Shown: piece by piece, positions 13,889 to 54,692 of the stretch
Layout: each line of letters starts with the position of its first letter
Numbering within the stretch: position 1 is the first letter of the stretch
Assembly (NCBI GenBank): GCA_019671135.1
Contig: JAHRHY010000003.1
Coordinates: 2,294,001-2,358,000, forward strand
DNA from: Linnemannia hyalina
Lineage: Eukaryota > Mortierellomycota > Mortierellomycetes > Mortierellales > Mortierellaceae
DNA: 64,000 bases
Direction: 5' to 3'
The notes under the pieces: generated by a model
The model's database searches: none
Seen by the model: the letters and a program-made list of their open reading frames with translations, nothing else
What the model was told of the DNA's origin: nothing
Position numbers and translations under genes: made by a program

Positions 13889-14890
13889 AGGAGGAAGAGA
13901 TGGTAGTGGTCGACACTAAGTGCATGAAAGAACAACAAACAACAGGTACAAACAAATAGAACAATTCTCTCTTCTTTGCCAAGGGTTTAGGATGATCCGC
14001 AGTGTGTGCGTCCATGGAATTGAAGCAGTCAGTGTGTGGGGTTCCTGGCGTCTTTTAGAAGGCGAGCTTTGCCCTGTCCGAGTGAGAGGGCGAGTGCAGC
14101 CTGTGGCAGTGATAGAGCACATGATGCCGATAGATGATGGCTTATGGGAAGGGGCGAATGAGATTCAGGAAGGGTGGGGCCTAAAAGAGCGAACCCTCTT
14201 TATCTGCACATGGGGTGTGGATGGATGTGTGGATGTGTTAGTCAGTGCACCTCTGACGTCTTCGACACTGCTGTCCTGCTGCCCTGCTGCCTGTCTCAAT
14301 CAGTCAGCACAGTGTCTATTTGACAGCGTTGTTTCTTGTGCCTTTGTGTCTCTTTTGTGCTTGCCCCATGGTTATGTTCTGTCTCTTTCTTTTATCTCTC
14401 CCTCTTTTTGATTGCATCATCAACTAATCCTCTTCTCCCTTCCCTTACTCATCAACATCTTCCTCTTCTTATTCCATCTACTGCACCTTTTTCTCTTCAG
14501 GGACAGGTCCACACATACACCCCCTCCACACACACACACACACTCACACACCCATTTCCATCCCCTAGTAGTAATGTCAATTTAAACCCCCATCGAACTC
14601 TCTTTGTTCCTTGCGGGTTCACACACACACACATACATACACACATACACTATCTCTCTCTCCCTCTAAATCACATCAACTCTTCCCACCAGCACCGTCA
14701 TCCCCCCCTATACTACTCCCAGTCCTATACTACTACCAGCCCTATCCTGTGAACCACTTATTCCCTCTCTCTCCCTCACTCGCTTATCGCACACTCACAT
14801 CTAACAACATCAAGAACAAAAAATCAGTTACAATATCACCCAACACTACTACCACCGCTTCCTTCAACATCCTCCATACCCCTGCTAACC
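13889..14890. other. ATG15 3' region and WNK gene leader
   Basis: No gene was seen. The right half (14360-14880) is a pyrimidine-rich leader with two (CA)n microsatellites (about 14528-14549 and 14621-14649), ending in A/C-rich sequence just before the kinase start. Confidence 0.6.
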
Positions 14891-17800: not shown

Positions 17801-18777
17801 CGTCCATCAAGAGCCGAGGTTTCAGTCGCGGCCATGCTCGGTCACCCTCGTGTGACCTGGCGTCGCTCATCCCTCATTCCATGGGCGTCCCTACCTCATT
17901 GCGCATCTTTAACCCACCAGAAGCGTCAACCAACGGTGACTTTAGAGGCAAGGCCCCATCTGAAGCTGGCTACTCAATGGCGGCACCGATTCCGGCGTTT
18001 GGAAAGGCTGTTGTTGGTCGACCTTCGATTGCTGCCACTATCGCCTCCAGTGCCCCCGTCTCGTCTTTCCTGCTCAGGGAGCCAACACCTCGTTTGGCGA
18101 ACGAGACTTTGACAGCAACATCCTCTCAAGTCCTCAAGGGCGATGTTCTATCGCACCCTGCGGACTCGACACTCACTGCACAAGGAACAGGATCTGATTC
18201 GGGAATTTCCAGCGGAGTATCGAGCCCTGCGTCAACCCTGCTACAAAATCACACTGTGCCCACTGTGGCAGAAGTTCCATTCCAGCCCACAATCGCCTCG
18301 CAGGATCTTCTTTCACCCTTCTCTGCGCCGTCAATCTCAACTTCGTCTCGTTCGCATTCTTTGGACCCCATGAGTAGTAGTCTCACCAGCGAGGGGCTCT
18401 TTCCGATTTTGATGACGCATGAGGCCAAGAAGAACATTGAGCTCTGGTCAGACCATGTTCAACAAAGGACCGCATCGGTCGTCTCGGGACCCGAAGATCT
18501 GCAGCGCGTGCCACATACCGCGTCGCTTCCCTCATCCAGCTGCACAGATATGTCGGACGATGAAGAAGAAGAGGACAACGAGGACGACGTGGACTTGCAG
18601 TTGCTGAAGGAACAGCAGAGGAAAGAGCTGGAGTGGATGCGATTGCAGCATGAGATGCAGTGGGAGGAGATGATGAAGCTGAAGGAGCAACGCGACAAGA
18701 CCGGCGAGCCCAGGATGCGGAGGACCAGCCATGTCAGCGGCACGTCCTGGCCAACGACCATTATGGATTCTCTGTAA
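14891..18777 (+). CDS. WNK (With-No-Lysine) serine/threonine protein kinase
   Basis: Exons 14891-15568 and 16204-18777 encode 1,083 residues, with a phase-0 intron of 635 nt splitting the kinase domain after MCVLEM. The kinase domain spans ~residues 27-305. The usual beta-3 lysine is missing: the strand reads EVAWNQ with Asn57. A lysine sits in the glycine loop instead (GEGAYKLVY, Lys40), which is the WNK hallmark. Other motifs: IIHRDLKCDN; DLGLAVV in place of DFG; SSVLGTPEFMAPE with the activation-loop serine; KYDEKVDIYAFGMC. Residues ~440-520 resemble the WNK PF2/OSR1-C autoinhibitory fold (HEIKFPFDTDVDTVEEVV). The rest is Ser/Pro-rich, and a Glu/Gln-rich coiled helix lies near the C-terminus. 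Animal WNKs sense chloride and osmotic stress and activate SPAK/OSR1; a similar osmotic role here is inference. Confidence 0.95.
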
Positions 18778-24495: not shown

Positions 24496-27400
24496 TCAAA
24501 GAAGACTAGATTCACCCTCGTGAATAAGTTGCTGCGGCTGCTGCTCCTGTTGTTGCTGTTGGCCAATGACGTGATCCAAACCCGCAACCACGTCCGATGT
24601 ATGGATGCTAGGGCTCTCCTGTGCAACAGCAAGGCCAGCGTCAACACTCGGTGATGATGCAGATGTAGAGGGTCCTGAAGGCGGCTTCTGCCCTGCTGGA
24701 TCGACTGCTCCAGTGCCCGAGAACAGCGTCTTGCCTACGCCCATCATCAAGGCTGCATAGGACGATCCAGACTCTGAGGATTGAGGAGGGAAGACCTCGG
24801 CCTTGAGGTTGGGCAAGAACTTGTTGATCCTGTTCCATGTCACGTTCCACAAGTTGCCAGGCATGTTGGCCATCGACTCGGCGAAAGTATCCGAGGTAGA
24901 CATAACCAGCAAGCAGTTCTTGAGAGACTCTGGAACAGCCTCGTACTAAGTACAAAGAAAAATCAGGCACAAGTTAATCATGTATTTCAGCGGCAGCTTG
25001 AACAGTGGCAAAAACCCAAGAATCACTGTCAACATACCAATTGGTCACTCTGGGCAGTCTGCATAAATGCATCCAAGTAGTCCAGAACATTCATCCAGAG
25101 TGCTTGAAGACCCTCCCACTCCAAGAGGCGGAAGTAGTAGTGCAAGAAGGTCTTGCAGACGATGGCGCAGGCCTTGCTACGCGTTTCCTCAAAGCCTGCA
25201 GGGTCTTGCTGGACGATCTCGGGTCTCAAAAGATCCTCTAACAGCTTGAAGAGGACCTTGTCAAAGACGACAACCCACTCTGAGATCTTGTCCGTCACAA
25301 TCTCGGGCAGAAGCAACGCGCGCTGGAGGTAAATCATTGCATGGTTGCGGACCTCGCGACATGGGTTGGAGCACTGCTGAGTGAGACCAACCAAGATCGG
25401 GAACCAGTAGGCAGACCAAGTCAACTCGGGGTTCATCTTGGACTGTGTGATCAGGCGAGGAGCCTGGCTGTGCAACTTGTACAGCATCTCGACAGCCTTC
25501 TTGGCACGCTCCACTGCGTTTGCCTGGGCCTTGGACATATGGCTCTTGTGTCCTCGCTGTCCGCTCTCCTGCTTCAAGACTCCATCAGCACCAACGGCAC
25601 CGGCGGCTGCAAAGCGGATCAATAGATCGACGCAGTCAGCATAGTTCTCAACGCTCACGTTCTCGCCATCGTTCTCAGCGACAAACATGCTGATTGCCTC
25701 AAATGAGTACTTAGCGGCTTCAGGGTGGTTGGAAGTCGAGGACAAGAGGGCAAAGAGAACATCCCAGTTCAAGTTGGGCCGAACGCAGGAAGTGTCTGCC
25801 TTGAGCAAGTTCAAGACTCCCGCCATCATCTGTTCAGCCACCTCGGGGACAACATCGATGGGCAATCCAAGCAGCAGGTCCAGAGCGTCAAGTACCTCCT
25901 TCGACATGTCGTCCTTGTGGGCCAAGCGAATACACAGTCTTAAAAGACCAACGACAGCGCGCTCCACCAGCAAAACGCTCTGAGAACTAGCCTCACGAAT
26001 GATATCACTTAAGTGCTCAAAGACAATGGGCCAAAGAGACTGAACGCGGTACCGGTTCTGGACAGTCAAGCTGATCATGAGCTCAAGGAAGAAAACGCTG
26101 GCGGGATTGTAGAGCTTGGAGGGTGTAGGGGGCTTGGCGGTCTTGACGACAGAGTTGCCATCGGCAACAAATTTGATGGCCTCCATCAGCTGTGTCAATG
26201 GCAAGTCCTCGAGGAGGCGAATGTCGGTAAAGAGCTCCTCCAAACGACAAGCGGCAACACAGTCGGCGGTGCAGCGAGTCGACTCGATCTCCTCGGGGGT
26301 TGGGTCCTCACGGGCAGTCTCATAGGAGTAGGACGATGACAAGAGGTATGAAGAAAGTGTCGAGAGTAGAGAGCTGTCCTGGCGCACCTTGTCCTTGACT
26401 TCTGGGACGACGGGTGCCTTCAACAGAATCATGGTCGTACCAGCCAAAAAATCCTCCACCTCCAGCATCGATCCGGGAAGGAGAGAGTTGACAAAGAGGT
26501 TCTTGATGATCTCCAAGATCGGTTTCCAGCCCGAGCGGATCATGTTGCCATGTTCGTTGGCGACTCCAAAGGCGACAACGGCCGCCAACTGACCCTTGTA
26601 GCTCTTTCCAAACTGAACGGCGAGATCGCTGACAGTAATGGTCGAGCCTTCGACGACGACATCCCGGTTGTCTGCGGGGTTGTGAGGAGTGTCGAGCAAT
26701 CCAGTCATCCTTGCAAGCGACATGGTAATGCGGTCAAAGATATCGGGGAGTTTGAAGTGTGCAGCCAAAATAGCGCACTGATAATATCCCGTAAGCGACT
26801 TTTGGAGTGTCGCATCATCCTGAGCCATGTTGAATGCTAGTTGATGCATGTCAAAAGGGATAAATATGTTAAATACTGTCACTTCTACCATATATTTCAC
26901 AACCAAACAATGAAAGCTTACAGCTGGCGTATACATACCATACGAAATTGCAGACATGATGGGCTTCCAGGAGGATGTAAAGAGCTCCTTATCGTACATG
27001 GCGGTGTTGGACACGGTGAGAGGTCCTGCGGTTTCGGCTCTACGCAAAAGCTCCTTCCATGCATAGTTGAATCCGAGCTGACCCTCGTGTTCCTGAGGTA
27101 AAACAATCTCGCGCTTGCGGATAGCCTCAAAGATCTCGGCCAAGTACTCTGGAGGAAAGTTTTCGCCGTTGTTGACGCCCTTCAAGTTCTTGGAGAACTG
27201 CTCAAGGGACATACGTCCCTTGACCACGCGGTTGTGCTGATCCGTATTCAACATGACGACGGCATATCCGAGAATAAAAGCTGCATCCTGAGATGCGATA
27301 GCCCTGGGCTTGGTGGCAAAGTAGGTAGCTGCGAACAATTCCATGATACGCTCGATCTGCTGCGACTCTCCGGGTAGGCGGAATGTCTCCAAAAGCTCGC

Positions 27401-30400
27401 GAAGTGACTCATCCAGACGCTTTCCGTTGAAATCGAACGACTGGATAAACTGCTTGAGAACCTCCGAGTTGGCGGGCTTGGCGAGGTACTCGCCCAAAAG
27501 GCTCTTGCTGAGACGAGTGCTAGACTTGAGGAACAAGGCAACACCAGCAGGATCGTTCAAGCTTGAGATCATCTTGTTTGCCTCTAAGAACACAAGGCCA
27601 GCCTTGGGGTTCTTGTCGAATTTAGCGGCGCCCTCGACCAGAATTTCCTTCTGCTGGCGGCGTTTGAACAGGGTATCATACGAATCCAGATCGCGGTCCA
27701 GAATCTCGGCTTCTTCCTACTCAGTTAAAAAATATGCCTTTGGTTACTTCCAACATCCCTACCGGGGAGTACATTTGCCGTGTCAAGGTGATTTTAGTCG
27801 CGTGTTTTACCTTTGGAACGGAAAGGCGGTCGACCATATGGTTAATAAAGAGTAACAGTGAATCCATGCAAAGCATGTGCGAGTTGCTGGCGGAATATGT
27901 GGTCGATTCCGGGAATGAGTTCTAGGTGAGCGCCAAAGGAAGGTAATAGTCATAGTTAGTTTCCGCATGTTTTGTGATAGTGGCCAACTATTCCAATCTC
28001 CAGAAGGCAAGAGTAGGCCATTACCCTTGTTAAGAACTTGACCATATCCTGGAACAAATCACAAGTATCCAGACCACAGTCATAGTTGACCCAGAGGTCA
28101 GCCATGAACGTAGGCGAGCGAGCAAACTGGCCCAGACACTCCAAAAGAAGCTCGCGAACTTCTCCATGTGCGGTGGTGAGTTCGACCTTTTCACCCTTGG
28201 AGCTCTTGACAGAAGGGCTCGGTGATCCAGCACGAGAACTGTTTTCGGGTTCAGGGGTGACAATGGGCCGTGGAGGTTCGCCAAAGTCAGGGTTGAAGGG
28301 AAGGGGCTTGACAGCAAACGCTGGAGGGCTCAAACGATCCAGCAAAAAAGAGAGGAAGAGCTCCTGTTGCAGCTTCAAGTCGGTCTTCATGGTGTCAAAG
28401 ACGGTCGAAATTACGCGCAGTGTCAATGCCAAAATGGGGATATTATCAGTCCTGGCAAGCTAAGAAGATTTGAAGAGAGAAGATAGGGGTGAGTCGACCA
28501 TGCAGATCAAATTACTAGCTTATCTCGCACAGATAGTAAATGGCAGAGGAATACGACACATACTTGAAACAGGTGCTTGCACATATCGTCGGATACAAGG
28601 GCCATAAGAGCATGAAACTTGGTGATACTCCTGCCGCCTGCCTCCAATGCGACATCCAAAATGCTCAAGGCCATCAAACGCATGCGATCCGTGTGCTGCT
28701 GGTCTTGGGGGTTCAAGAGCGAGATCAAGACACGAAGGAGTTCCCGAATCGAAGGAAGGCCGTAGGATTTTGGTGCTAAATGAGGATATAGATAAACTCT
28801 ATGAGCATCAAGACGCGCCACGAGTTTTAGGTACTTGGGAATCGCCATTGTGGGAGCATGAAGTGGGCTTACGTTCAACTTCGAGAAGGGTCTCGGCGGA
28901 TTCGGGGTCATTGTTCAATGTGGCGTTCTCCTTCTCGTATTCCTGCTGCTTTTCTCGCTCATCTATGTTAGCCTTAGACTTTTCTGATAAAAGAGCCTCG
29001 GCTTCCGTTTCCACAGTTGCAGGATTATGGTTGATGGTGAGGTCGACCTGGTCTGTGCTGTCCTGAATGCTGGCGGGCTGAACAAGGATTGTCTCGCTAT
29101 CATCTGCTTCTGATGATTCACCTTCAGCCGATTCTATAGGAATAGGGATGGTACGAAGCCTAGTCAAAGAAAAAGACGACTCCATAATTAGATTTGAGGG
29201 TTTCCAGATGTCTTCACAGTGATATGCAAGGGTGCTCCATGCATATTTACATACTTTTCAAACATTGTCTGTGTGATGACTGTCATGGTGTGTTCTGCAG
29301 ATTTCCTCAACATTTCTATTGGAGTGCAAAGAAAAATAGGCGCCTGGTTAGTGTCCGCAGGTAGCAGCTTCGCCCGATGGGGATAGAAATAAAAAGCTCG
29401 TGCAGGTCGGTTGACATACCGCTCAATTGAAGTTGACAGCACATGCTGAGTCCGGTCTCAATCATGGAGCAAACAGACTCGTCGCTCAGAGTGTTTCCTG
29501 GACCGCTGGTCAGGGCAATGCGTAGCACCTGAAGAATCTTCAAAAGAACGATCTCATCCGAAACAGAATCGCTAGCTTCGAACTTGCAATGAGTTGCTGC
29601 CACCGCCAACCGCTGCATCGCATGGGAGACATTAGGCGAGTCTTTGTCTATTAGATATGTATGAGATCGAATCGTCAGCATATGTAGTCATGGGTCATTT
29701 CTTCAGCTATTGACAACAGGTTCAATATAGCATACGTCTAAGAACTTACTGATGATCTTGTACATGAGAAATTTCTCCACTGAAGTCAGTGCTGCACCAG
29801 TGATGGGTCCATTGGTATCGCCTGACTGGATGACCTGGAGAAAGGGTTCGAGCAATGCGACAGCATCCATGTCTTTGGCAGCTATTGTTCGCATGGGGTG
29901 TGATTGATGGGGTTAAAGGCTGCAAGTGTGCACAGTACGATCCAAGCTTCGGTACACTGTCCTGAACCTCCCAAACACTTACAAGTTGTTGTGGCAAGGC
30001 GAGATCTCAGTTCGTTAAACCCGACCATGAGGGGACTCTCCTATTACGTTGATGAGAATAAGAAAAGAAGACCGAAAACTACCTGTCAGAAGCAGGCCTT
30101 ATTGGTGTATTCTTGACACAATCGAACACGAGCTACTCAGAGGCATACCTGGTTGCGATAGGTGCCTTCTTTCAGGTTCTCACGTCCACGGAGACCCATG
30201 TTCATACCAAGGCTGCCCATACTCATTCCGCTGACGCTCATTCCAGACCAACGCGAGTTTCGTCGCATGGCACTTGTGACAGAGATGATTTCGGCATGGA
30301 TGAGATGAGACCACTGGAGTTCATATCCTGGCGTGACGTCCTCTTCTTGAAGAACACTCTGGCGGGACCGTTGTGTGGTGAGTCTATTGGCGAGGGTGTT

Positions 30401-33440: not shown

Positions 33441-36400
33441 ATGAAGGGCCCTTCTCGGTCAGAACTGGCGATTACCGACGATAACCTCGAATGGATCGAG
33501 CAACACCACCGCGCCACCAGCCGCAAGGCACCAACAACCCAAAAGTCACAACACCAGACCCTAGGCCAAAACCTCAGTCATAACCAAACATCCGGAAGCC
33601 ACGAGTTTGTGCCGAGTGGAGATGAGTCCGACTATGCAGAAAAGAACCACCAGTCTGTCTTTTATGCCCCTGACCCCCATAAACGCACCAAGGAGTATCA
33701 CATTGAGCAGGCAATAGGGGCCATCAAGCTCCTCAAGGCAGCCTCCAAGCCTGAAGGATGGAAGAAGGTATTCAGACACAAGTCCGACTGCGTTGTCTCC
33801 CAGTCTACCGGCAATGGCGACAAGCATCCAGCATTCAAGGGCGAGCATGTCATTCGTGGTTTCCGCGCACAAGACGTCTTCTCCATCGTTGGAGTGCGAA
33901 AGCTGTGGGAGTAAGTGTCGAATGCTATTTCTTTGGAGTGTAGTTTTTGCCCTCTTGATCTGCAAATCGATTAGGGTGATACAGATGTTAATTGCTACTT
34001 TTCTTCAATTCAAATAGCGATTGGTATGACCAGTTAAACTGTGTAGAGTCGTACGACGAAGCAACGAACCTGATGTACATGGTCATGAAGGGCAACATGT
34101 CTTCAAAGTAACGTATCATCCGCGATATATCTGGCTCATACTTTTCCCACTGGTCCGGCAATGCCCAAAAGGCACGACTGCAGAGCCAAGCACGATCTTA
34201 ACTTTCAATGCCATTTATACACAATAGAACACGAGATATCTCGATGGTCGAGCGGATAGAGGTGGAACCCGACGGAACCATCTACTTTGCCTCTTGTTCT
34301 GTCCAATCCAGCAAAATCCCGCTCATGTCCGGCAAAGTCAGGGCGGATATCTTTGTTGCAGGATGGGTCATTCAGCCATTGCCATCCAACCCACCCATCA
34401 CAAAGGTCACCTACGTGATCCAAACAGATCTCCTCAGCCGGTTACCAAAGTTCATTGCACGGAGGGCGCTCGCCAAACGACCATTAGTCATCACCACCAT
34501 CGAAACCCACCTCAAGAAAAACGGCGTTCCAATGGTCATGACCAAACTTGTCTCTCAGACCACTAACCGCCACCGAAGTCTCAGTGAGCCGCTAAAGCCC
34601 GAAAAGTTTATGTTTACCGAGCGGGATTCCGAGGAGAATGTTCAGTCCGGATCCTCCTTCCTTTCACCTATCGAACCACTTCGCCCAGATAACCATGTCG
34701 AGGAACTGAATACAAAGGAGGACTCTGACGACGACGACCTTCAGCTGGCTATGGCCTCGGTCAGTGAAAGCTCGACAGCCAGGAGTTCGCTCGCACCCAG
34801 TCTCCTGTCCACTCGTTCCCTCGCCCCGTCAATATTCTCACCCGAGTTCCTGGAAAACAACGCACATCTCGGCGACACTGCAATGTTTGGCGATTCAGTT
34901 TTGTTTGGGAAAGGAGGCATCTATGAGAACAACATGCGAAAACAGAACGAGATATCTCGGGCATCAGACGATACCAACCGGGCACAATCGCCTCAACTCA
35001 CCCAAACACCAGCCCATTTTCCTGAGCGTACTCGGCGGGCACCACCTCAGGCTGCAAGAACTCTCCCACCAGAAACCGACATCCGGGATCGTCATCAATT
35101 GGCTTCACAGGCTTCCTTCAAGCGGATAGACACACCCAGATCGAATCCACCACCTAGGACGGCCCAGCCATCCACCCCAGAGCAGCCTGTTACACCTACA
35201 GTCACTCTGGCGACACCCCCATTGACGCCCACAACCTCGATCGATGGCAAGGACGCAACGTCGGATTCGGATGCCTCTCTTACACCCAAAGTCAGGATCG
35301 TCCCCCGCGTGCCCAAAACGCACGCTACCGTCGACACCTCACTTCCTCAACGACCTAGTTCAATGGCTTTTGCAGCGTTCGGAATGCGGTCGCCTTCAGC
35401 CATCATGGAAGCGCGTCGCCACAGCACCCTGATCAGTCGTAGCTCATCCTTTGCTCCACGACATAGCCATGCTGTCCCTATCCGAGGCAGTCCTAACATT
35501 ACCCTGCAGGGCTTGAACCGGTCGTCGATGATCTTCAACTCGACACCAAACGCATTGAAGAGGCACTCAACCGCTCCCAGTGTGGATTCCAACCGTTCGT
35601 CGACTCAGCTTACGCCCATGATCGTCCTTCCTCATCGCCACTCGGAGACGGCACGCAAGGCGTTGGCAATGTTTAAGGTGTTGGCATCGAGTCCCGAGGA
35701 TCGCTGGAAGGCTATCTCGAGCGATGGTACCTTCAAGAGCTACAGCAGAGTGATCTCGGGCGCCGGGCTCCCAATGCTCCGAGCGGAGGGTGTCATCAGT
35801 GGAGGCTGGACAGTTGAGCAGATCAACGCCGTTATCGAGTCCTCTGGCTGCCGACAGTTCTGGGATGAGCGCTTTGACAATTTATCAATCGCAGAGACGT
35901 TCAACTCGAACGAGTACCTCTTCCATGTCGCACTCCGCGGCATTGGATCTTTGACGTACGTTTTGCCAAGCGATCGCATGAAGCACGTTCAAAAAATCAT
36001 TCGTGTCTGCCATTTCTTACTCGTTTTTTTACTTACTCACATTCTCTTACAATAGTGGCCGTGATCTGGCTGGAGTAACAATTGTCGACCGCGATCCTCA
36101 GACAGCGGCACTCTGCAACGTCTCAACGTCGGTTCTCGACTCTACCATCCCAGAGGACCCTGGTCGTATCCGTGCATTGCTTGAGTTGTCCGGTTGGTCT
36201 CTGAGACCCACATTTGATGGACAGGGCAACACCGTTTCGGTGAATGTCACCTTTGTGATCCAGATTGATATCCGCGGCACGCTCCCTACCTCGGTCGTCA
36301 AGTCCCTCACTGCCAGCATGATGACAGGCGTCTCTCGTCTCAACCAGTTCATCAACAAGAGCGGATACCCACCCTATGCCTCTCACATCTCTGGCACTCG

Positions 36401-38429
36401 TCTCCTTGACACATTCGAGCCCAAGACGGGCTTTTACGAGCTGTGCTACAAAGCGGCGCCGGGATGGACTGAGGTTCGAGTTGGCCGCAAGGTCTACAAG
36501 GATGGCTACGACTTTTTCATCAAGCCCGACGACCCTACTGTCCGTGTTGAGCTTGCTCCAGACTTTGGCGGTGTTCGTATCTGGACAACCCTCGACCATG
36601 AGGGCCAGAGCATCATTGCCCAGGTCACCCGTAAGGGACATAACCCGGCCGGCAACCCTGCTCAGGAGCCAACTCAGCCGTCGCAGCCCGATGACGAAGA
36701 AAGGGAGAGCGGGAGTGACGAGCCAAGCCGCCGCAAGCGAGAGCCTTATGTGCCCCGTCGACCAAGAGACAGCCGTGTGTTTGAGTCGTCGTCGCCAACG
36801 TTTGGTGGCCCGTCCCCGCGCAAGTCGTCGAGCCATCTAAAGTGTAATGATGATGAAGATGATGTTGAGTTGGAGAATCCTGAGCAGGTAGATGTCCGTT
36901 CTTCTGGAGATGTTGGTGGTGGATCCGACCTACGACCACATGAGGCGGCGGTGTCGTCCGTCGGTCGTAAGAGGAGAAGCGCCAGCTTCACAACTTTGAG
37001 TACCTTTGACCCTAATCTCGTTGTTGCCTCTTTTTCCTACCGACCCGCTGAACTCCCACAGGCTTCAACGGCCCCCAAGGTCTCGCAGGAGTCCGAGAGG
37101 ACCGGGAGGAGCCGTACTAGGAGCACGCCCCGCAGCCTGACGAATGTCCCCGATAATGCCTCCCCGCCAACCCTCCCACGCCGTTCCAGTTCTCTCAGCC
37201 GACACTCTGTTCCCCTTTCGCCGCCCTTCCTGTCTCTCGTTGACGCCCCTCCCATGCCCATCATTTCTACGTTCACCGCCGCTCCTTTGACCCAAGGTGA
37301 TTCGTCTGCGCCATCTTCCGCTGCCTTAGCCGATTCCCCTACAACCTCCCCTATCACAACCTCCTCAGGGACGACTTTTATTACGTCGCCTTTCTCCAGC
37401 CCGACTCTTGGTCCTTTCCATGTCCCACACCACAGGCCGATCGAGTCTCCCATGCCAGGCCGCGATATTTTCCAGGTACTTGAGGATCCTCAGACGCTTA
37501 ACCTCTCAGTCCCAGCCAGCAACACAGAGGTTGAGAAGAAAGACACCAAGGGGTCTGAACCTGAGCTGGAGCCAACTACCAAGCTCACATCCGTCCTGAA
37601 AAAGTCGATCCTTCAGCCAGCAGCAGAAATCCCTACCAGCTCCCGTGTTGTTGATTCGGATGTCGATGCATCTTCCTTGATCGCACGGGCTGTCATTCCC
37701 TCGATATCTGAGGTTTTGGCCAAGTCGACCTCTGTCGATTCTGAGTCTGCCGATCACCAAGATGTCAAAGCCTCGTTGACCACTATGAGTTCTCCTTTGA
37801 CTTCGCCCGTTCCTGGACCCAGGACATCGAGCCTTAGTCACAGAAGTTCGAACGCGTCGGTCGGCAGCATTACCCGCAGGGTGACCTTCTCTCCTGATGT
37901 GGTCGACAACTCTGAGACCAGAACAACGCCCCTCCGACCCAAGAGGCTCTCCAGGAAGAAGTCGGTCTCACTGAAGGCCAGTCCATTGGCTGAGCTCCAG
38001 ACTGCCAGTTCCGGTGAAGCAGAGACTGTCGAGACAACAGAAGCAGCTGCTATTGTTGATATTGTTGCCTCTCCTGTTGTTGTCGAGGTTGCCACTGTTG
38101 CAGTGTCTGTAGTCGAGGTCCAGGATGAGGCCGGATACGAGAGCGACGAGGCCGAGTTTGTTGAGGCCCAGTCTGAGTTCTTTGACGATACTCCCGAGGA
38201 CACCCCTGTTGCTGTCAAGGAAGTTGTTGTTGACATCGCAGCGGTCGCGCGACGCGAGGCGGAGAAAGAGCAAATGTTGGTGGATATGAAGGGGCACTAT
38301 ATTGGACATGAGGATCTGTGGCGGACAGCGACTGATTCGTTTGTGTCAGAGCTGAACATGGTGCAGGTCAAGGCCGTGCTTATGTTTGTGCTTGTTGCGG
38401 TGTATGCCAGCGGCTTGCTCGCGATGTAG
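33441..38429 (+). CDS. Tandem START-domain lipid-transfer protein with C-terminal membrane anchor
   Basis: Four exons (33441-33910, 34018-34107, 34228-35955, 36056-38429) encode 1,553 residues. The first START-like domain spans ~residues 90-300: GWKKVFRHKSDCVV; VIRGFRAQDVFSIVGVRKLW; DWYDQLNCVESYDEATNLMY; KVTYVIQTDLLSRLPKFIA. A Ser/Thr/Pro-rich linker follows, then a second START-like domain (~665-960: GLPMLRAEGVISGGWTVEQI; RQFWDERFDNLS; VTFVIQIDIRGTLPTSVVKS) and a C2- or beta-like extension. The remaining ~500 residues are low complexity. The final residues VKAVLMFVLVAVYASGLLAM form one membrane helix at the extreme C-terminus, so the protein should be tail-anchored with the START cavities in the cytosol. 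This suits lipid transfer at an organelle contact site. Ligand and organelle are unknown. Confidence 0.88.
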
Positions 38430-38935: not shown

Positions 38936-41900
38936 ATGTCCGACACACCCAAGAGTCCTGCTCGTCGCCAATTGCGCAAAAGTGCGCTCCAGGCCTCGCC
39001 CTTCGGAGCCCCTGTAAAGTCATTCCTTAAAGCATCCCCCTCAGCCTCCTCCTCCTCTTCCATTTCCTCTCCAGCCTTCACCATCCCCACAACCACAAGA
39101 ATCAAACCCGTCTCGCCACCCATGCCATCGTCAACAACAAGAGCACTTGAAGCTGACGCCCAGGAGGAGGAGGAAGGATCTGCCTCGCCCCTCGACAGTC
39201 CCACTTCACGGAAATCGGCCAGACTCAGCAACATGTACAAGAATGTGGACCTGAGTGTCACGCCCAAGAAACCTCCTACAACACCAAAGTCAAAGAGTCA
39301 CCTCAAGATAGGCGTGTGGGGCTACATTGTCGGCCTTAAGAAGCATGACATGAGCGAGTACTGTCGCTTCCCTATCGACAAGTCCTATTGTTCCTTTGGC
39401 AGAAGTGGTAACAATGACGTGCCTGTCCCCTTTGAGTCTGTCTCGGACATACACTGCAAGTTGATTCGAAGGGAAGACGGCGAAGTAAGCAAAAACAATA
39501 ACAACAATAACAAGAGCAATAGAGATGAATGAGTATTATTGTTTTAATATCCCGAGCAATTGACTGACGATATTATTCTGCTCTCATTGTTAGATCTGGC
39601 TCAAGGACACATCGAACATTGGAACCCTGCTCAACAACGTCCTTGTCCACGACACCGCTCGACCCATCGAGCACAACGACATCATGACCATCGCAGGACG
39701 AAGCTTCAGATTCGAGACCGCCATGGTACAACCTGAACCCCTTTTTTGTTACGCCACCACATTACATATCACAATGAAAAAGGAGTACAATGCTGACTTT
39801 CTTTTCCCCCGTATTTTCTTTCCTCGGTCATTTATCCAGACCACTCCACGGCCACCCCTCCAGGCTACAGACGGAAACACTACGCCAGGACGGCACATCA
39901 AGAGCATTCAGGCGTCCTTCGACAGCGACTTCTCAGCCCTGGCAGAGGCCCCTTCACCTACGGCCGGTAGAACCTCGACGACGCCGAAGAGAAATCTTTC
40001 AAGGAGCACCGCCGCACTGGAATCATCCCTCGGTCTCTTCACTCCTAAAAGCGCCGCAAAGCTGTCTAGCCTGCTTGTTTCGCCAAAGCCCATTCCTCTC
40101 CCAGCATTCTTGAAATCGCCTAGACAATCAACCACCTCAACCGACAAACCTTCAAAGCCCAGTGTCGCAGCGGATACAACAGACGACCTACAGGAGCTGG
40201 AAGAAAATAGCTGCTGGCGAACCCCCACCAAAGGGAAGCGCAAGTCATCCGAGGACCTTTTCACCGAACTGGGCAGGACTCCCAAGAAGGTCTCCTTTGG
40301 TCCCAATCTGAACCCAGAGGTCTTTTCAAAGAACAACCCTCCTAATACGCCCGTCAAGCGCGGCGACCACCAATCACCGAGTGTCTCGACCCCATCGTTT
40401 ATGTCAAGACTGGCTGCTGCTGGCGGTACTCCCAAATCGATCCTGACACCTTCGAAATCGAGCCGGACAAATGTCTTCCAAGGTCTCGAGAAACCCACAC
40501 CTATCAAGCTCATGCTGTTCTCTCCTGAGGTCCAAAAGATCGCCACCACACCAAAGAAGCAAGTCATCGATGCGCAGGATGCACTTTCATCAGTCAGCAG
40601 GAAGCCAGTTTCGGTACAGGACGAGCGTTCCAGTAACAGTAGCGGAAACGACAGCGATGACAGTCTCCGGGAAAAGATCGGCTCAACATCGACAACCAGC
40701 CCGTTCATTGTACCTGCAGCTGCAACAGAGTCGAGGAATTTTAATGACGACGTCGAGGAGGAAGACGACGACGATGAGAGCCCGCTCTCGACACCAACAC
40801 GAGGTCCAGCTTCGCGACAATCGAGCGCGGGGCTAACCACCCCGAGCCGCTTGAAGTTTCCTCTTTCAACCCAAGACGTCCCAGAGGAGCACTTGCATCA
40901 CTCTTTCAAGCTGCATGCCTCACCTCTTCAGCCGGATGCAGACAACCCTTTTATATCGAATGACGAGCCTCGCGGTGACAGCCCCTCACATTCTCCAAGC
41001 GTTGCGGCTGTCCAACGACACCATCCCGACTTGACACATGCAATTGAAGAGGAACTCGACACCCCACTCATTGACGAGGCCGAACTCCCAGCGGACGCAG
41101 AACAGGAGACTGCTACTCCTGACGTCGATATTCCGGACACCACCCCTGTACATACCCCCGTCCGTAACCGAACCAAGGATGACCAAAAGTCGAATGTGAC
41201 CCCTGGTGCGAACACGCCCGGATCTGCCTCCAGACTTGCGCTCTTACAGCTTTCCGCTCAAAGGATACGCGGTCTCCCAGATTTGCTCCAGTCGCCAGCT
41301 GCAAGAACATTGGCCCACAAGTCATCTGAACCAGCGTCTACCATCCCCGAGCCTAGTGTAGATGATGTGGACGCGGAATTGGAATCGGATCAGGATAGCA
41401 GCGTGGATGAGGAAGCGACACCGGCGGTGTTTGAGTCAGGCAACAAGGTGGCGACTGAGCAAGCGGAGGAAGAAGCGGCACTGGCGGTACTTGAATCGGG
41501 CAACGAGGTGGCAGAAGAGCAGTCAGACGACGAGGAAGTGACCAGGAAGGAAGTGGATCATACTCCTGAGCCGATGATTGAGGAAAAGGATGAGTCTGCT
41601 GGCAACAAGGTGGTGACTGAGGCAGATGATATCCTGGCCAAGGATGATGAGCAGAATAACCGAGCCAGCGGAGTAGATTCCAAGCGGCGATCGAGTGCGC
41701 CGGTCGCCAGCACTATTCTTCGCCCTCAGAGCCCCATGTTCACCGGACTTCGTGGAGTGTTCCGGACGCCCCAAAAGGTTGTCGAGACATGCTTTGCAGG
41801 ATTTAATGGATTTCGCAACTTTGTGATGACACCCACTCGTTCGCAATCCTCCACGGAACTTTTCGCTTCCACTCCAAAGGCTGAGAGTCAGGATACTGAA

Positions 41901-42914
41901 GGAGAGGAGAACCCTTTCCAAGTCACGTCGGACGATAGCCAAAAGGAGGAGGAAGCTGTTGAGACTCTTGATGCGCAGGAGGTTGCCGCCGCCATCGGTG
42001 CTGAAGAGCATGGTCCTGAGCTAGCCAAGTTTACGTTCTCTGCTGTATTTGGTGAACAGAACACTTACGCTGAGGACAAAGCCGATCAAACCACGAGTGC
42101 AAAGGAGACCGCGACCGATGACAACAGCTCCAGTCGCACAACATCCACGACAATGACGACAAAGCGCCGCATTTCTTCACATCAGGGTGCGTTGGCGCTT
42201 TTGACGGGCAACGATGGAGAGCCTTCGCCAAAGTCAAAGGAATTTGCGTTTGCATCGGATTCGTTGGAGCTGATAAAGGCGCGCGGAAGGCGGTCAGACG
42301 TTTTCCCTCAGAAGCGAACTGTTGCAAAACGGAGCCTCAGCCAGAGCGGGGATAACGATGAAGTCAAGAGTGAGACTGCTGACAAGGACGGCTCAAGTAG
42401 ACGTAGGAGAACCATTTCGATGTTTGAGTTTATGGCAGCGGTGACCTCGTCTACAACTACTACAGTGACAAGGCCCTCAGCGGGAGCGGAAGCCGAGTCT
42501 AATGATCAACATGATGGTGCCGGAGTTGGCGACGATGCTGAGCAGGAGGAACTGTTGCGATTGCTGGGTGAGGGCGCTGATTCAGGGGAAGATGACGATG
42601 AGAATTTCGGTGAGATTATCGGAGCAGCTGATTGCGATGATGCCTTTGATGGTGGATTTGACGAGGACGCGTCCAATGTCGCAGACGAGGCGGCGTTGGA
42701 TGATACCAAGGATCACAATATCAAGGCGTCGCCGCGGAGAAGATCCGGATCGTTCCATACTCCAACTAAGAGGCGGCAGTCGTTCAGGAGTAGATTGGTT
42801 TCGTCATCCCCGGGGTTCGGATTGTATGAGCTGGACGGAGTCGAAGACGAGGAGGACGAGGAGGACGACGACGTGATCATGATCTCGCCCAAGCGCCTTC
42901 GTGTCCTGGAGTGA
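38936..42914 (+). CDS. FHA-domain protein with Ki-67/Repo-Man-type PP1 docking motif
   Basis: Exons 38936-39484, 39594-39725 and 39840-42914 give 1,251 residues. Residues ~122-225 are an FHA phosphothreonine-binding domain (CSFGRSGNNDVPVP, SVSDIHCKL, IWLKDTSNIGTLLNNV, IEHNDIMTIAGRSFRF). At residues ~376-402 stands KKVSFGPNLNPEVF followed by SKNNPPNTPVKRG. Its spacing (RVxF-type core, FG, L-P-E-hydrophobic-F, then PPNTPxKRG) matches the KiR motif with which vertebrate Ki-67 and Repo-Man recruit protein phosphatase 1. The remainder is disordered, Ser/Thr-Pro-rich (many CDK-type TPK/SP sites) and acidic toward the end. It contains three G-hydrophobic-x-x-hydrophobic-hydrophobic-x-[TS]-P elements (residues ~704, 862, 883). 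By analogy it is a mitotic chromosome or nucleolar PP1 scaffold. Orthology to Ki-67 is inference from domain order and motif. Confidence 0.85.
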
Positions 42915-43020: not shown

Positions 43021-43753
43021 ATGGGAAAGACAAGACCAAGTATGGACAGAGGAATGAGGACACGGACGCCTGGAGACTAGCGCACCTGATGTTAATGGCA
43101 GTTACTCGGATCAGCTTTTGCGCCATTGTACCACAACACCTCGAACAACCCTTCCTGACATACCTTCCCCCTCCTTCCTACCATAAAACAGATATTCACC
43201 AATCAAAGTATGCGCCACACAACAAGCGAAAGGCAGCATCAGGCGAGGAAGGTACGTTAATATATTTGTCATATACAAACTCTCTCTCTCTCTCTTTCTC
43301 TCTTTTGATTTCCATGTTGGTACTAAGGACGCTGGTAAGTTAACATTTTATTTATTTCTTGCTGTGATATTAGCGCCTGTGTCGATGAAGGAGAAGGTCG
43401 GGAAAGAGTTGGAACTTGCCAAGCTCCGTAAACAGGTCACCATGTAAGATCAACATACCACCCTCCGATGTGTAGAAATCAAGGAGGCCAAGACATTGCA
43501 GGAGAGAAGGAGAAAGAAAGTACCTCACGTCCAAATTCACTAACAACTCTTCTATATCGAATCACCAACGAAATATGATAGTGACAAGCCAAAGAAGACG
43601 ATTAAGAAGAAGCCAATGAGCACAAAGGCCAAGATTCGCAAGGGAAAGACGCTCGAGCGTGGATTGATGAACGCCGAGAAGGATGAGAAGAGAATCGATA
43701 AGCATCATGATAAGGTGACACTCAAGAAGCGCGGCAAGCAGATGTGGGAATAA
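43021..43753 (+). CDS. Small very basic protein, Alb1-like (ribosome biogenesis?)
   Basis: Four short exons (43021-43039, 43192-43251, 43374-43443, 43582-43753) join in phase to 106 residues: MGKTRPNIHQSKYAPHNKRK, then AASGEEAPVSMKEKVGKELE, then a Lys-rich segment PKKTIKKKPMSTKAKIRKGK and a helical C-terminus ending KKRGKQMWE. The C-terminal pattern (basic helix, ERGLMNAEKDEKRIDK, terminal RGKQMWE) recalls Alb1, a pre-60S factor that partners Arx1. The match is weak and from memory. The four junctions (donors GTATGG, GTACGT, GTAAGA; acceptors CAG, TAG, TAG) and the uniform Lys content support a real gene. It is convergent with WAPL, the stops 185 bp apart. Confidence 0.65.
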
Positions 43754-51321: not shown

Positions 51322-51900
51322 GTAAGCAGCTCATCTGTAATCCTTCTCTCATCTCTTTCTTTTTTTTTTACTCATCCCTGGTAGCCTTACTATTTTTCCC
51401 TGCAAAAAGTAGTAATAACGAGGAAAAGAACGGAAGAAGGAGGATTATTGATTGTGAAAACGCTGAAAGGGGGAGGGGTTGGCGATAGAGCAGAAAAGCA
51501 ATCGTATGAGGGGAGAAGAGGGAGGAAGATCAATCTGCGATAATTAGGCTGCTCTTTTGTCTCAATATTCGAGCACACCATATTAGCCAGAAACATCTGC
51601 CATTTCACTTTTCTTTAGTCCATCTCTCTCTCGCCTCCCCCTATTGTTCTATTTCCCTTTCCTTTAGTTAATCTTTTTCAATGCGCGTTAAACCTCGATA
51701 TCCATGCCGCTGGCTGGAGCAAAGCGGATCAGCATTCGGCGGTTCATTCCCTTAGATGAAGGGAAAAAAACTCGGCCTGGACAGGAGCCCTGCTCTCCGA
51801 AAACGGTTCTCCGCTGTCGATTTGGTCGTACCAGATGGTCAAGGCTATTGTTTGCTAACGTTCCCACCGCTCTCTTTTTCTCTTCATCGCTGCTTTCTAG
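51322..51900 (+). other. Probable 5'-UTR intron of the Kelch-BTB gene
   Basis: A (CA)n run ends in CACAG, followed by donor GTAAGC at 51322. At the far side a branch-point match TGCTAAC (51853-51859) precedes a pyrimidine tract and the acceptor TTTCTAG at 51900. Splicing here removes the upstream in-frame ATG at 51756 and leaves a 143-nt leader before the ATG at 52044. Confidence 0.6.
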
Positions 51901-52043
51901 ATAACGACACTTATTCTTTGGGAACACAAGAAAAAAAAACCAATTGGAGTCCTTATTTGTCACCGATCGAGAACCGACCTTCTGCACAGGACACCTCCAC
52001 AACCACCTTACCAGTCTCAGTTCTCAGCCATACCTCATTCACC

Positions 52044-54692
52044 ATGCCAGCACCAGCACCAGGACTCCAGTCCATTTCGGACCTGACCACAACCTCCCGC
52101 ATCACCACAGGGGATATCCCCCCTCCCCTGGTCGGAGCAACTATGACAATCGTCGACGACAAGCTGTATCTCTTTGGTGGTCGTTTGATCCAAAGCCGTT
52201 TGATGACAAACGCTCTCTACATCCTTCACCTGGAAGAGTTCCGCTGGGAGAATGTCTCCGAGATCGTCAATGTGCTCCCCCCACAGGCCGCTGTCGGCGA
52301 CCCAGGCGCCGAGGACGAGAACGAAAAGTCGGCTCCTCCAGCAGAGAGATACTTCCATTCCGCCAACGCCTACAAGAACATGATCGTGTTTTTCGGAGGA
52401 ATGGGTCCAGCCCCTGGTTCGGCCGAGGGTCAGCAGCAGGATCTGGTGGTCTTTGACGATATCAAGGTGCTCGATCTCGAGCTCCTTCAGTGGCGGCAGG
52501 TCCGCATTCCTTCGTCGCCCCATGCACCCAAACCCCGCTACGCCCATCTCTCCAGCATCTCTGGCAACAAATTGGTCGTGATTGGCGGTCAGGACATTGG
52601 AAACCAGTATATTGAGGAGATCAACGTGCTCGACCTCGATGGTTGGCAGTGGGTCTCTTCCATGCCCTTTGATAAGCACTGTGGCTCTTACCGCTCAATT
52701 GCTGTCAGTGGCAGTGGTCAGGGAACCACCATCCCCCAGATCGGAAGCGAAGTTGATCAGGCTTCGGCCAACTCCCTCTCACCTACCACCGACGGCTTCC
52801 CCACATCGTACCTCCGCAAGGCATCCTCCAACACCTCCCTTCACTATACACCCTCATTGCGCAAGAGTGCGTCCAACTTGGCCTTACCCAAGAAGGGCGG
52901 TCCCATGTCGCGCCTTTCTGGAGGACCTGGCAGCTTTGGCAGCTCGCCCCCAAAGGAGCAACGCTCGTCTATTTATCGCTTGTCGACATTGATGACCTCG
53001 ACCACCCCTGTTCAACAAGAGGAGCACCCCGTCTACCTCTACTCCAACTTCAACTTTACCGATGTCAAGCGAGAGCTCCAGGTCTTGACCCCACCTGGTT
53101 TCCAGGTCCAGGACCACTCCCAGTCCATGTCTGGCAACCTCTTGCCTCCTGGTCTCCGTTTCCCTACCGGCGCCATTGCTGGGCAGCACCTGTTGCTCTC
53201 TGGAACATACCTGACCAGCACACAGCAATCTTTCAGCATCTGGTCGCTAAACCTTTCCAGTTTGGTCTGGACTCGTATCGACACTGGCTCCGTTTTCAAC
53301 TCGGGATCATGGAACCGTGGATTGTTGCTTGAGGGCTCAAACGCTTATTTAGTTTTTGGAAACAAGACCCGCAATCTCGCTGACGACTACCAGAACCGTC
53401 AGACCAACTTTGAGCATGTCTCGATTGTTGATTTGGAGGCATTCGGCATCTACCAGCACCCACCCACCACCATGACCCAGACAGCTCAGGAGCTCGGCCT
53501 TGGACTCTTGAATGACCCCTCGATGGCCGATTTTGAGATTCTAACCATTGACAATCAGCGCATCCCCGTCAACTCGGTGATCCTCTCTGCGCGATGGCCG
53601 TACTTTGGGGCGCTTCTCAGGGAACAGGAGGAACAGGACGCAGCAGCAGCAGCAGCAGCAACTCCCGGGGACGGGGACGTCAAGGAGAATGACGCCACTC
53701 TATTCTCAAAGAGGACGCTGTCGCTGCCAGAGCCATACACCATTGTCCTAGCCTTCCTCCAATATCTCTACACTGATCACCTGGTCACTGCACAACAACA
53801 TCATTCCCAGGTCCTCTCACAGCTGTTACTCCTGGCTGATATGTATGGCTTGGACCGCCTCCGGGATCTCGCCACACACGCCCTTCACCAGATGCTCAAC
53901 ATGTCGACAGCGGCCATGGTCTACGAGACCGCAGCCCTTTCTCAGCAGACCGGACTTCAGATCCGGTCGTTGAAGGTGATGATTGCGGCCAAGAAGATGC
54001 TCCAACAGCAGCAGCTCAAGCTTCAACAGCAACAGGCACAGAGCCAGAGCATTTCAGCCGAACATGCATGGCGTTCGGGTGAACATTCAGAAGGAAACCC
54101 CTACTCCTCTAACGGCTCGTACATGTCACAACAACAAAACATCCACGGAATCTTCCAACCCTCCCCTCCTCCACCACTCTCACCCGGATCCTCTATCGGC
54201 AACCCATCATCGCCCGACTTCCGTCGTGGATCCGTTACATCGCAGAACACTGGTCTCCCTCATATGGTCAGGAATCGCGGTTCGTTGTTGGGAGCGATGC
54301 CCCCTCAACACTGGAACACTGAACCCCTGACTCCTCCCCCGGCTTCGCCACCACCCCCAGCAGCTATGCCATCACAGTCCACGCCGACCATCAAACAGTC
54401 CTTCTTCTCCTTCCCTGGATCCAAGAGCAAGGCCGCTGCCGCTGCAGCAGCCGCCGCCGCCGCGTCCAACCCTCCACCCATGTCTGCACCCCTGGCGCCA
54501 CCACCATCGGATGCGGCGTCGATCCGTAGCGGCAAGAGCGGCGCGTCGTCAGGATCGGATCTATCGCCCGCAGACAAGAAGAAGCAAGATGAGGCACACA
54601 AGCGAGAAGTGATGCAGCGGCTAATGGAAGGCAGCTTGGGTAACTCTGTCTTTAGCGGTGGAGCAGGAGGATTCGCCATGGGCAGCTTTTAA
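52044..54692 (+). CDS. Kelch-repeat BTB-domain protein
   Basis: A single coding exon of 882 residues. The frame is open further upstream, but that part falls within a likely leader intron; ATG 52044 has a good context (CACCATGCC). Kelch blades occupy ~residues 20-230 (DDKLYLFGGRL, NMIVFFGGM, NKLVVIGGQDIG) and probably 340-470 (GQHLLLSGTYL, AYLVFGNKTRN). The BTB/POZ fold follows at ~495-620 (ADFEILTIDNQRIPVNSVIL, FLQYLYTDHL, LLLLADMYGLDRLRDLATHA), then a BACK-like helix and a Gln-rich, Pro-rich and poly-Ala tail. Kelch-before-BTB order is seen in fungal Ral2-like and animal LZTR1-like proteins, which act on Ras or as Cul3 adaptors. Which applies here cannot be told from sequence. Confidence 0.92.
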   Translation: MPAPAPGLQSISDLTTTSRITTGDIPPPLVGATMTIVDDKLYLFGGRLIQSRLMTNALYILHLEEFRWENVSEIVNVLPPQAAVGDPGAEDENEKSAPPAERYFHSANAYKNMIVFFGGMGPAPGSAEGQQQDLVVFDDIKVLDLELLQWRQVRIPSSPHAPKPRYAHLSSISGNKLVVIGGQDIGNQYIEEINVLDLDGWQWVSSMPFDKHCGSYRSIAVSGSGQGTTIPQIGSEVDQASANSLSPTTDGFPTSYLRKASSNTSLHYTPSLRKSASNLALPKKGGPMSRLSGGPGSFGSSPPKEQRSSIYRLSTLMTSTTPVQQEEHPVYLYSNFNFTDVKRELQVLTPPGFQVQDHSQSMSGNLLPPGLRFPTGAIAGQHLLLSGTYLTSTQQSFSIWSLNLSSLVWTRIDTGSVFNSGSWNRGLLLEGSNAYLVFGNKTRNLADDYQNRQTNFEHVSIVDLEAFGIYQHPPTTMTQTAQELGLGLLNDPSMADFEILTIDNQRIPVNSVILSARWPYFGALLREQEEQDAAAAAAATPGDGDVKENDATLFSKRTLSLPEPYTIVLAFLQYLYTDHLVTAQQHHSQVLSQLLLLADMYGLDRLRDLATHALHQMLNMSTAAMVYETAALSQQTGLQIRSLKVMIAAKKMLQQQQLKLQQQQAQSQSISAEHAWRSGEHSEGNPYSSNGSYMSQQQNIHGIFQPSPPPPLSPGSSIGNPSSPDFRRGSVTSQNTGLPHMVRNRGSLLGAMPPQHWNTEPLTPPPASPPPPAAMPSQSTPTIKQSFFSFPGSKSKAAAAAAAAAAASNPPPMSAPLAPPPSDAASIRSGKSGASSGSDLSPADKKKQDEAHKREVMQRLMEGSLGNSVFSGGAGGFAMGSF

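Follow-up and report, generated by a model that had tools for sequence, protein, structure and literature searches.

The 64,000-nucleotide stretch of Linnemannia hyalina DNA analysed here (the window) carries, at 38936-42914 of the forward strand, a gene whose product joins an FHA domain to a docking block for protein phosphatase 1 (PP1), in the order and style known from animal Ki-67. The gene has three exons and encodes 1251 amino acids (aa), from a start codon at 38936 to a stop codon at 42912-42914; both introns are GT-AG, and the spliced frame has no internal stop. Exon 1 (38936..39484, aa 1-183) encodes a basic, low-complexity N-terminus, for which the homologs give the starting consensus MSDTPKSP.RR.LRKSALQASPFGAP, together with the first part of the FHA domain. 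Exon 2 (39594..39725, aa 184-227) supplies the second part of this domain, and the same spliced sequence is found in homologous proteins, while exon 3 (39840..42914, aa 228-1251 plus stop) holds a low-complexity part with the PP1 block and an acidic tail.

The best database match is P0001 from Linnemannia hyalina (Mortierellomycota, Mortierellaceae), all 1189 aa of which are identical, with a start 62 residues further in. NCBI names it 'antigen identified by monoclonal antibody Ki-67', and most of the named homologs are already labelled Ki-67 there. When residues 1-468 were searched against the genome at E ≤0.01, only the gene's own exons were matched, and no second copy was found.

FHA domain and PP1-docking block

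Pfam places an FHA domain (PF00498) at aa 153-216 (39392..39692, interrupted by intron 1; E 3e-10, 40.8 bits against a cut-off of 20.7) and a PP1_bind domain (PF15276) at aa 376-403 (40284..40367; E 1.7e-6, 28.6 bits against a cut-off of 27); a third match, Yop-YscD_cpl, lies under its own cut-off and overlaps the FHA domain. The block KKVSFGPNLNPEVFSKNNPPNTPVKRGD comprises an RVxF-type KVSF, a phi-phi element EV and a version of the Ki-67/Repo-Man short linear motif (KiR-SLiM). It begins with KKVSFGPNLNPEVF...PPNTPVKRG at aa 376, 160 residues past the FHA match, and is encoded within a single exon, which confirms the initial annotation in its reading of an FHA domain and a PP1 block on one chain. 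In a phmmer search of aa 1-468 against the Protein Data Bank (PDB), the Ki-67 FHA domain (4.4e-8), the Ki-67 PP1 peptide (4.7e-5) and Repo-Man (8.5e-4) were all recovered.

For each of the two modules a separate profile was built from 14 fungal sequences. The FHA profile (A4) finds two Ki-67 chains in the PDB at 1.6e-14 and 1.7e-14, followed by Rad53 at 6.4e-8, CHFR at 2.5e-7 and NIPP1 at 0.12; with 57 bits for Ki-67 and 36 bits for the next family, the lead is 21 bits. In a Foldseek search with the predicted FHA domain of P0045 (28 sequences), a homolog from Linnemannia elongata, ranks 1 and 2 are Ki-67 FHA structures, at 31-32% identity versus 15-23% in the other rows shown. The P0045 model has a mean pLDDT of 65.5, with the blocks at 131-220 reaching 83-93; the full-length model of P0001 has a mean of 37.6 and is poor in its FHA part as well, so that it does not bear on disorder such as that of the unstructured central region of bridgin. 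By profile, the domain is an N-terminal FHA domain of the Ki-67 type.

The PP1-block profile (A5) behaves likewise, with matches to Ki-67 at 1.4e-9 and to Repo-Man at 2e-8 and 3.8e-8, the next chain following at 0.64. In the 14 aligned blocks, RTPKKVSFGP, L, PE, F, PP, P and RG are invariant. Throughout the 51.5-Mb genome, PP1_bind gives one match at E ≤10, namely this gene; such profile counts are lower bounds, and the prokaryote control genomes are uninformative for PP1_bind. A DNA pattern for KKVSFGP gives 1 match versus 0 in the reversed control. Judged from these searches, the element is a PP1-docking block of the Ki-67/Repo-Man type, and its co-occurrence with an FHA domain exceeds chance. 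In published work, KiR residues are described as absent from every other PP1 regulator with a solved holoenzyme structure, and a Swiss-Prot scan of 2016 is described as returning Ki-67 and Repo-Man proteins only (both PMC5005033); an alignment of the PP1 region published in 2014 extended down to Hydra and Trichoplax (PMC4032110).

The block is also conserved, as the initial annotation had asked of related fungi. It is present in 43 of 47 homologous proteins, and the remaining four do not cover it (two fragments that start past the block, a fragment with the FHA domain alone, and the adjacent START-domain gene); in the first search alone, the block was found by pattern in 35 of 38 proteins. The homologs come from three protein searches, two of which scored the best 8000 candidates, whereas the search with a 45-residue region had 14 candidates. 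All of these searches required shared 5-residue words, and absence elsewhere in fungi is therefore not implied. The genera of the named homologs belong, we assume, to the Mortierellaceae (this is confirmed for Linnemannia), and on this placement the conservation is seen within that one fungal family. In an otherwise variable chain, 11 stretches rise above the conservation threshold, and the PP1 block is among them.

Another of the 11 lies between the FHA domain and the PP1 block, at aa 288-318 (40020..40112, forward strand); it reads ESSLGLFTPKSAAKLSSLLVSPKPIPLPAFL here, with the form SLGLFTPKSAAKLSSLLVSPKP[IV]PLPAFL, and resembles no motif that we recognised. Five short homologs (P0040-P0044, 401-468 aa) were also noted, one of which, P0042, is a fused model. 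Those from Podila epicladia and Haplosporangium bisporale end in the same C-terminus, and because of this common ending they may be real FHA-KiR proteins without an acidic tail.

Charge layout, Ki-67-motif-like elements and candidate phosphatase partners

The protein divides into a basic head (aa 1-435, 38936..40463 including both introns) and an acidic tail (aa 436-1251, 40464..42911), a layout that the homologs share. When the head is taken through 60 residues past the block start, its isoelectric point (pI) is 9.3-10.5 in the 32 block-bearing proteins among the 33 homologs with 1000 aa or more, and for the remainder of these chains it is 4.4-5.5; P0038, the one left over, is the neighbouring gene and was excluded, and P0007 lacks its N-terminus. 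The last 290 aa have a pI of 4.5 here and of 4.4-6.6 in the 32 homologs. The last 60 aa alone exceed pI 8 in 9 of the 32, of which five are models fused to the next gene and four are unfused (P0004, P0017, P0022 and P0036). Fusion affects five of these 33 long homologs, plus the shorter P0037 and P0042, and in these models the basic tail is that of the next gene. Because the junctions differ, we take the fused models as annotation errors; if real, they would supply a basic C-terminus.

The gene involved in these fusions is a small, intron-containing one that lies about 106 bases downstream in the window (43021-43753, forward strand). It encodes about 106 aa (MGKTRPNIHQSKYAPHNKRK...KKRGKQMWE) with no Pfam match over cut-off, and is fused to the Ki-67-like protein in several homologous models, with differing junctions.

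The chain is rich in sites of the type phosphorylated by cyclin-dependent kinases (CDK): S/T-P sites number 52, where 2000 shuffles average 21.1 and reach at most 35, and full CDK sites number 18, where the shuffles give 2.4 and at most 8. It further contains three short elements that recall the 22-residue Ki-67 motif, which ends in LAGFKELFQTP as quoted in PMC8354752. Two of these, FTGLRGVFRTP and, 21 residues on, FNGFRNFVMTP, fall in the conserved block FTGLRGVFRTPQKVVETCFAGFNGFRNFVMTP (aa 861-892, 41739..41834, forward strand), and a weaker one, IRGLPDLLQSP, is found at aa 703-713 (41265..41297, forward strand). Scored against the fungal position-specific matrices, the human sequence gives P values of ~1e-4, 3e-4 and 6e-3 after correction for 12 windows, with random sequence of general composition as background; the combined score of the first two elements is reached by none of 100,000 shuffled versions of the human motif, although all three had been chosen post hoc. 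The pattern G[LFMIV]..[LFVIM][LFVIM].[ST]P, drawn up after the sequence had been seen, occurs 3 times here versus 0.0065 in shuffles, and many homologs fit it at just one or two elements. Since the elements were picked by eye among the 11 conserved blocks, we treat them as a lead.

A family search with the N-terminal part recovered four PP1-type phosphatase genes in the genome (loci L002-L005, on contigs C3 and C23). Two of them are PP1, and the other two, with long low-complexity N-terminal extensions, we take to be PPZ. In both PP1 genes the Arg codon of VRGSRPG stands directly after a splice site: L002 reads LLEVRGSRPG, while L005 reads RGSRPG, its upstream exon being unlocated and the preceding V assumed. 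L002, read from its start to MCSFQ, contains both DLLRLFEYGGF and MCSFQ, and the L005 frame shows the DLLRLFEYGGF stretch; these two stretches hold R74, E77, Y78, F81 and Q294. On these readings, the PP1 docking surface is present in Linnemannia.

In human PP1, the choice between this Arg (R20 in gamma) and the Gln of alpha shifts the binding of Ki-67 and Repo-Man about tenfold (PMC5005033). No Gln-type PP1 to be discriminated against was found among the two PP1 genes located. Hence the selective PP1-beta/gamma docking that the initial annotation had carried over from vertebrates does not apply here, as both PP1 genes have Arg; if these two are the full set, the KiR clamp cannot have been kept in this fungus for isoform choice.

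Relation to Ki-67 and to other FHA-PP1 scaffolds

Because the FHA profile, the PP1-block profile, the conservation of the block and the Arg-bearing PP1 genes agree, homology to Ki-67 stands at the level of sequence. The two modules are shown to lie on one chain, in Ki-67 order, and to be specifically Ki-67-like by profile, in keeping with the identity proposed in the initial annotation. We consider it likely that the protein belongs, as a Mortierellomycota relative, to the broader family of Ki-67 and bridgin and functions as the N-terminal half of Ki-67 does. Ki-67 is in very wide use as a marker of proliferation, and its exact functions at the molecular level are still described as enigmatic (PMC8354752). 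The fungal protein is like it in having an FHA domain followed by a PP1 block, many CDK-type sites, a basic N-terminal part and, possibly, short Ki-67-motif-like elements. It is unlike it in size (1251 aa versus a 360-kDa human protein) and in ending in an acidic tail, whereas the human protein carries a basic CP patch in its N-terminus and a leucine/arginine-rich DNA-binding domain (LR), which binds chromatin, at its C-terminus (PMC13144362). Repo-Man (CDCA2) of vertebrates, whose gene probably arose by duplication of that for Ki-67 (PMC8354752), shares the PP1-docking block, but there the block comes without a Ki-67-type FHA domain.

In the mechanism that we propose, the FHA domain would read a phosphothreonine partner and position the protein at chromosomes, kinetochores or the nucleolus. 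The clamp, made up of KVSF, EV, and F389 with PPNTPVKRG, would wrap across the top of PP1 in the arrangement seen in the crystal structures of Ki-67 and Repo-Man. Phosphorylation of S379 (the Ser of KVSF) and of the CDK sites would keep PP1 off until anaphase, the counterpart of S379 in Ki-67, S507, having been studied as an Aurora B site (PMC5005033). Dephosphorylation of these sites would then, as mitosis ends, bring PP1 to mitotic chromatin or to the nucleolus. The basic head may serve as an RNA- or DNA-binding part, like the CP patch of Ki-67, the long remainder of the protein would be disordered, and the acidic tail may form an outward brush. The role in mitotic exit, which had also been put forward at the outset, is a proposal.

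Several observations weigh against this reading. The most degenerate published KiR-SLiM pattern (PMC5005033) is matched at 10 of its 14 specified positions, i.e. not fully, with the equivalents of D518 and L521 among the misses. Across the 44 block-bearing sequences (this protein plus 43 homologs, among them P0001, which is the same protein), 10 or 11 positions agree and 3 or 4 do not. The composite Ki-67/Repo-Man motif of the initial annotation is thus upheld by profile A5 and by PF15276 but not by the full pattern, and 'near-complete' is an accurate description where 'identical' is not. The anchors of the motif named in PMC5005033, F517 and P523, are both retained, as F389 and P395; since changing the counterpart of F517 in Repo-Man (F404) to Ala left function unharmed (PMC5005033), the conservation of F389 alone proves little. 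The VIA-align Z scores of the FHA model are near-equal for MDC1 (16.7), EmbR (16.6) and Ki-67 (16.4) and do not single out Ki-67; on structure alone, the predicted domain is placed no closer to Ki-67 than to MDC1. KI67R repeats (PF08065) were not detected by hmmscan here (E ≤1) or in five homologs (E ≤10), and none was found in the genome, where the controls were silent too and the search is uninformative. For the NIFK FHA-binding domain (hNIFK_binding), the best genome match has E 0.62 with a stop inside; the controls were silent again, which makes it a weak negative. A basic C-terminal domain corresponding to the LR of Ki-67, judged by charge only, was not found. Finally, the nuclear envelope stays intact in mitosis in many fungi (PMC9576876), so that a role at the chromosome periphery may not apply.

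A related fungal protein already described is bridgin (Bgi1) of Cryptococcus neoformans, reported in 2021 as a kinetochore protein resembling Ki67, which is given as its homolog in metazoans (PMC7794384), and bridgin is also reported from other fungal phyla and from Amoebozoa in a 2022 review (PMC9252888). The statement in the initial annotation that no fungal Ki-67 had been described was consequently wrong, as the NCBI labels also show, and its suggestion that the FHA-PP1 scaffold predates animals, while consistent with our data, was already in print. Bridgin has 1295 aa, an N-terminal FHA domain, a putative PP1 site behind it and an acidic middle (PMC7794384). The Linnemannia protein may therefore be a Mortierellomycota bridgin, i.e. 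a protein of the outer kinetochore that binds the KMN network through its FHA domain and disordered part and docks PP1 to reverse Aurora B phosphorylation there; this overlaps in part with our preferred reading, and we rate it as a serious but minority option. A Pfam FHA domain stands at the N-terminus as in bridgin, the comparison being one of domain type, and PP1 is present in the bridgin pull-down table (PMC7794384). However, the basic carboxy-terminus that was used to screen bridgin homologs is absent: aa 1005-1295 of bridgin have a pI of 11.20 (PMC7794384), whereas here the last 290 aa have a pI of 4.5, with the last-60 exceptions among the homologs noted above, and it is the head that is basic. 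Furthermore, the PP1 site of bridgin is called unconventional (PMC7794384), while that of Linnemannia is a near-complete KiR-SLiM, a distinction drawn from bridgin's published description.

The kinetochore inventory of the genome bears on the same question. Candidates for both CENP-C and CENP-T exceed their Pfam cut-offs, and there is hence no obvious need for a replacement kinetochore linker, although all three of CENP-T, CENP-C and bridgin are reported to be retained in Ustilago maydis (PMC7794384). The best CENP-C match lies on contig C5 (1.2e-16; the profile also gives matches below cut-off in 8 of 14 control genomes). The best CENP-T match lies on C5 too, in two neighbouring pieces (2.2e-12 and 0.43); this profile has 11 genome matches, four of them over cut-off, and matches below cut-off in three controls. 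The three equal-scoring CENP-T matches over cut-off are probably histones.

We regard as unlikely, though partly overlapping with the Ki-67-like reading, that the protein is chiefly an RNA scaffold of the nucleolus with PP1 as its interphase cargo, its basic head binding pre-rRNA as the CP patch of Ki-67 does and its mitotic roles being minor. The human CP patch has nucleolar affinity and is required for phase separation with RNA, and Ki-67 without its LR domain remains nucleolar (PMC13144362); the charge layout seen here resembles that of Ki-67 without LR. The many CDK-type sites, in contrast, suggest mitotic control. NIPP1 (PPP1R8) likewise combines an FHA domain with an RVxF motif, short motifs can arise by convergence, and VIA-align Z does not separate FHA families, all of which would suit an unrelated NIPP1-like scaffold with an acquired look-alike PP1 motif. 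To this possibility we give scarcely any weight, and it is already disfavoured by the searches: Foldseek ranks Ki-67 first, and the PP1-block profile matches Ki-67 and Repo-Man alone before E 0.64. A NIPP1-type FHA domain, orthology to which the initial annotation had named as the finding that would tell against it, is not supported, the NIPP1 domain being not close (profile E 0.12 versus 1.6e-14 for Ki-67).

By published architecture rules, the protein then qualifies neither as Ki-67 in full nor as bridgin, even though both of its modules are homologous to those of Ki-67. A more specific form of the Ki-67-like reading, which we advance tentatively and hold to be possible rather than probable, is that of a 'half Ki-67' keeping the ancestral core of the family, i.e. 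a phosphopeptide reader, a basic nucleic-acid-binding head and a KiR PP1 clamp, with a charge polarity that is the reverse of bridgin's, and lacking the anchor that animal Ki-67 has at its C-terminus. If so, PP1 delivery would be the family's original job, the C-terminal chromatin anchor and the repeat array would be later additions, and the KiR clamp would be older than PP1 isoform choice. A compact fungal relative with a PP1 clamp, and without recognised repeats or a basic tail, lets the order in which Ki-67 acquired its functions be tested, and may show the role of Ki-67 before its elaboration in animals.

The initial observation was true and its inference of homology largely right, while its novelty was overstated. 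Among the best listed papers, drawn mainly from open-access literature and judged by title and the start of the abstract, none describes a KiR-SLiM or Ki-67 in Mortierellomycota. As far as searched, what is new is a near-complete KiR-SLiM in a fungus, carried beyond animals by a Ki-67-like protein of Linnemannia, and the combination of a basic head with an acidic tail, unlike both Ki-67 and bridgin; to the same extent, the short Ki-67-motif-like elements, chosen post hoc, are new as well.

Neighbouring genes

Just upstream of the Ki-67-like gene (34202-38429, forward strand), two overlapping frames show START-domain matches, with E values of 2.3e-10 and 1.3e-4, the latter just under cut-off. 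In Dissophora globulifera, the START-domain protein BGZ98_000311 adjoins the Ki-67-like BGZ98_000312, and the BGZ98_000311 model also contains part of the Ki-67-like gene, which suggests that this gene order is kept there. Elsewhere in the window, a protein kinase lies ahead of a frame whose OSR1 C-terminal match falls slightly short of its cut-off (14753-18777, forward strand), a GBF1-like Sec7 protein is encoded on the reverse strand (25029-27716), and an LZTR1-like Kelch-BTB protein lies farther downstream on the forward strand (51756-54692).

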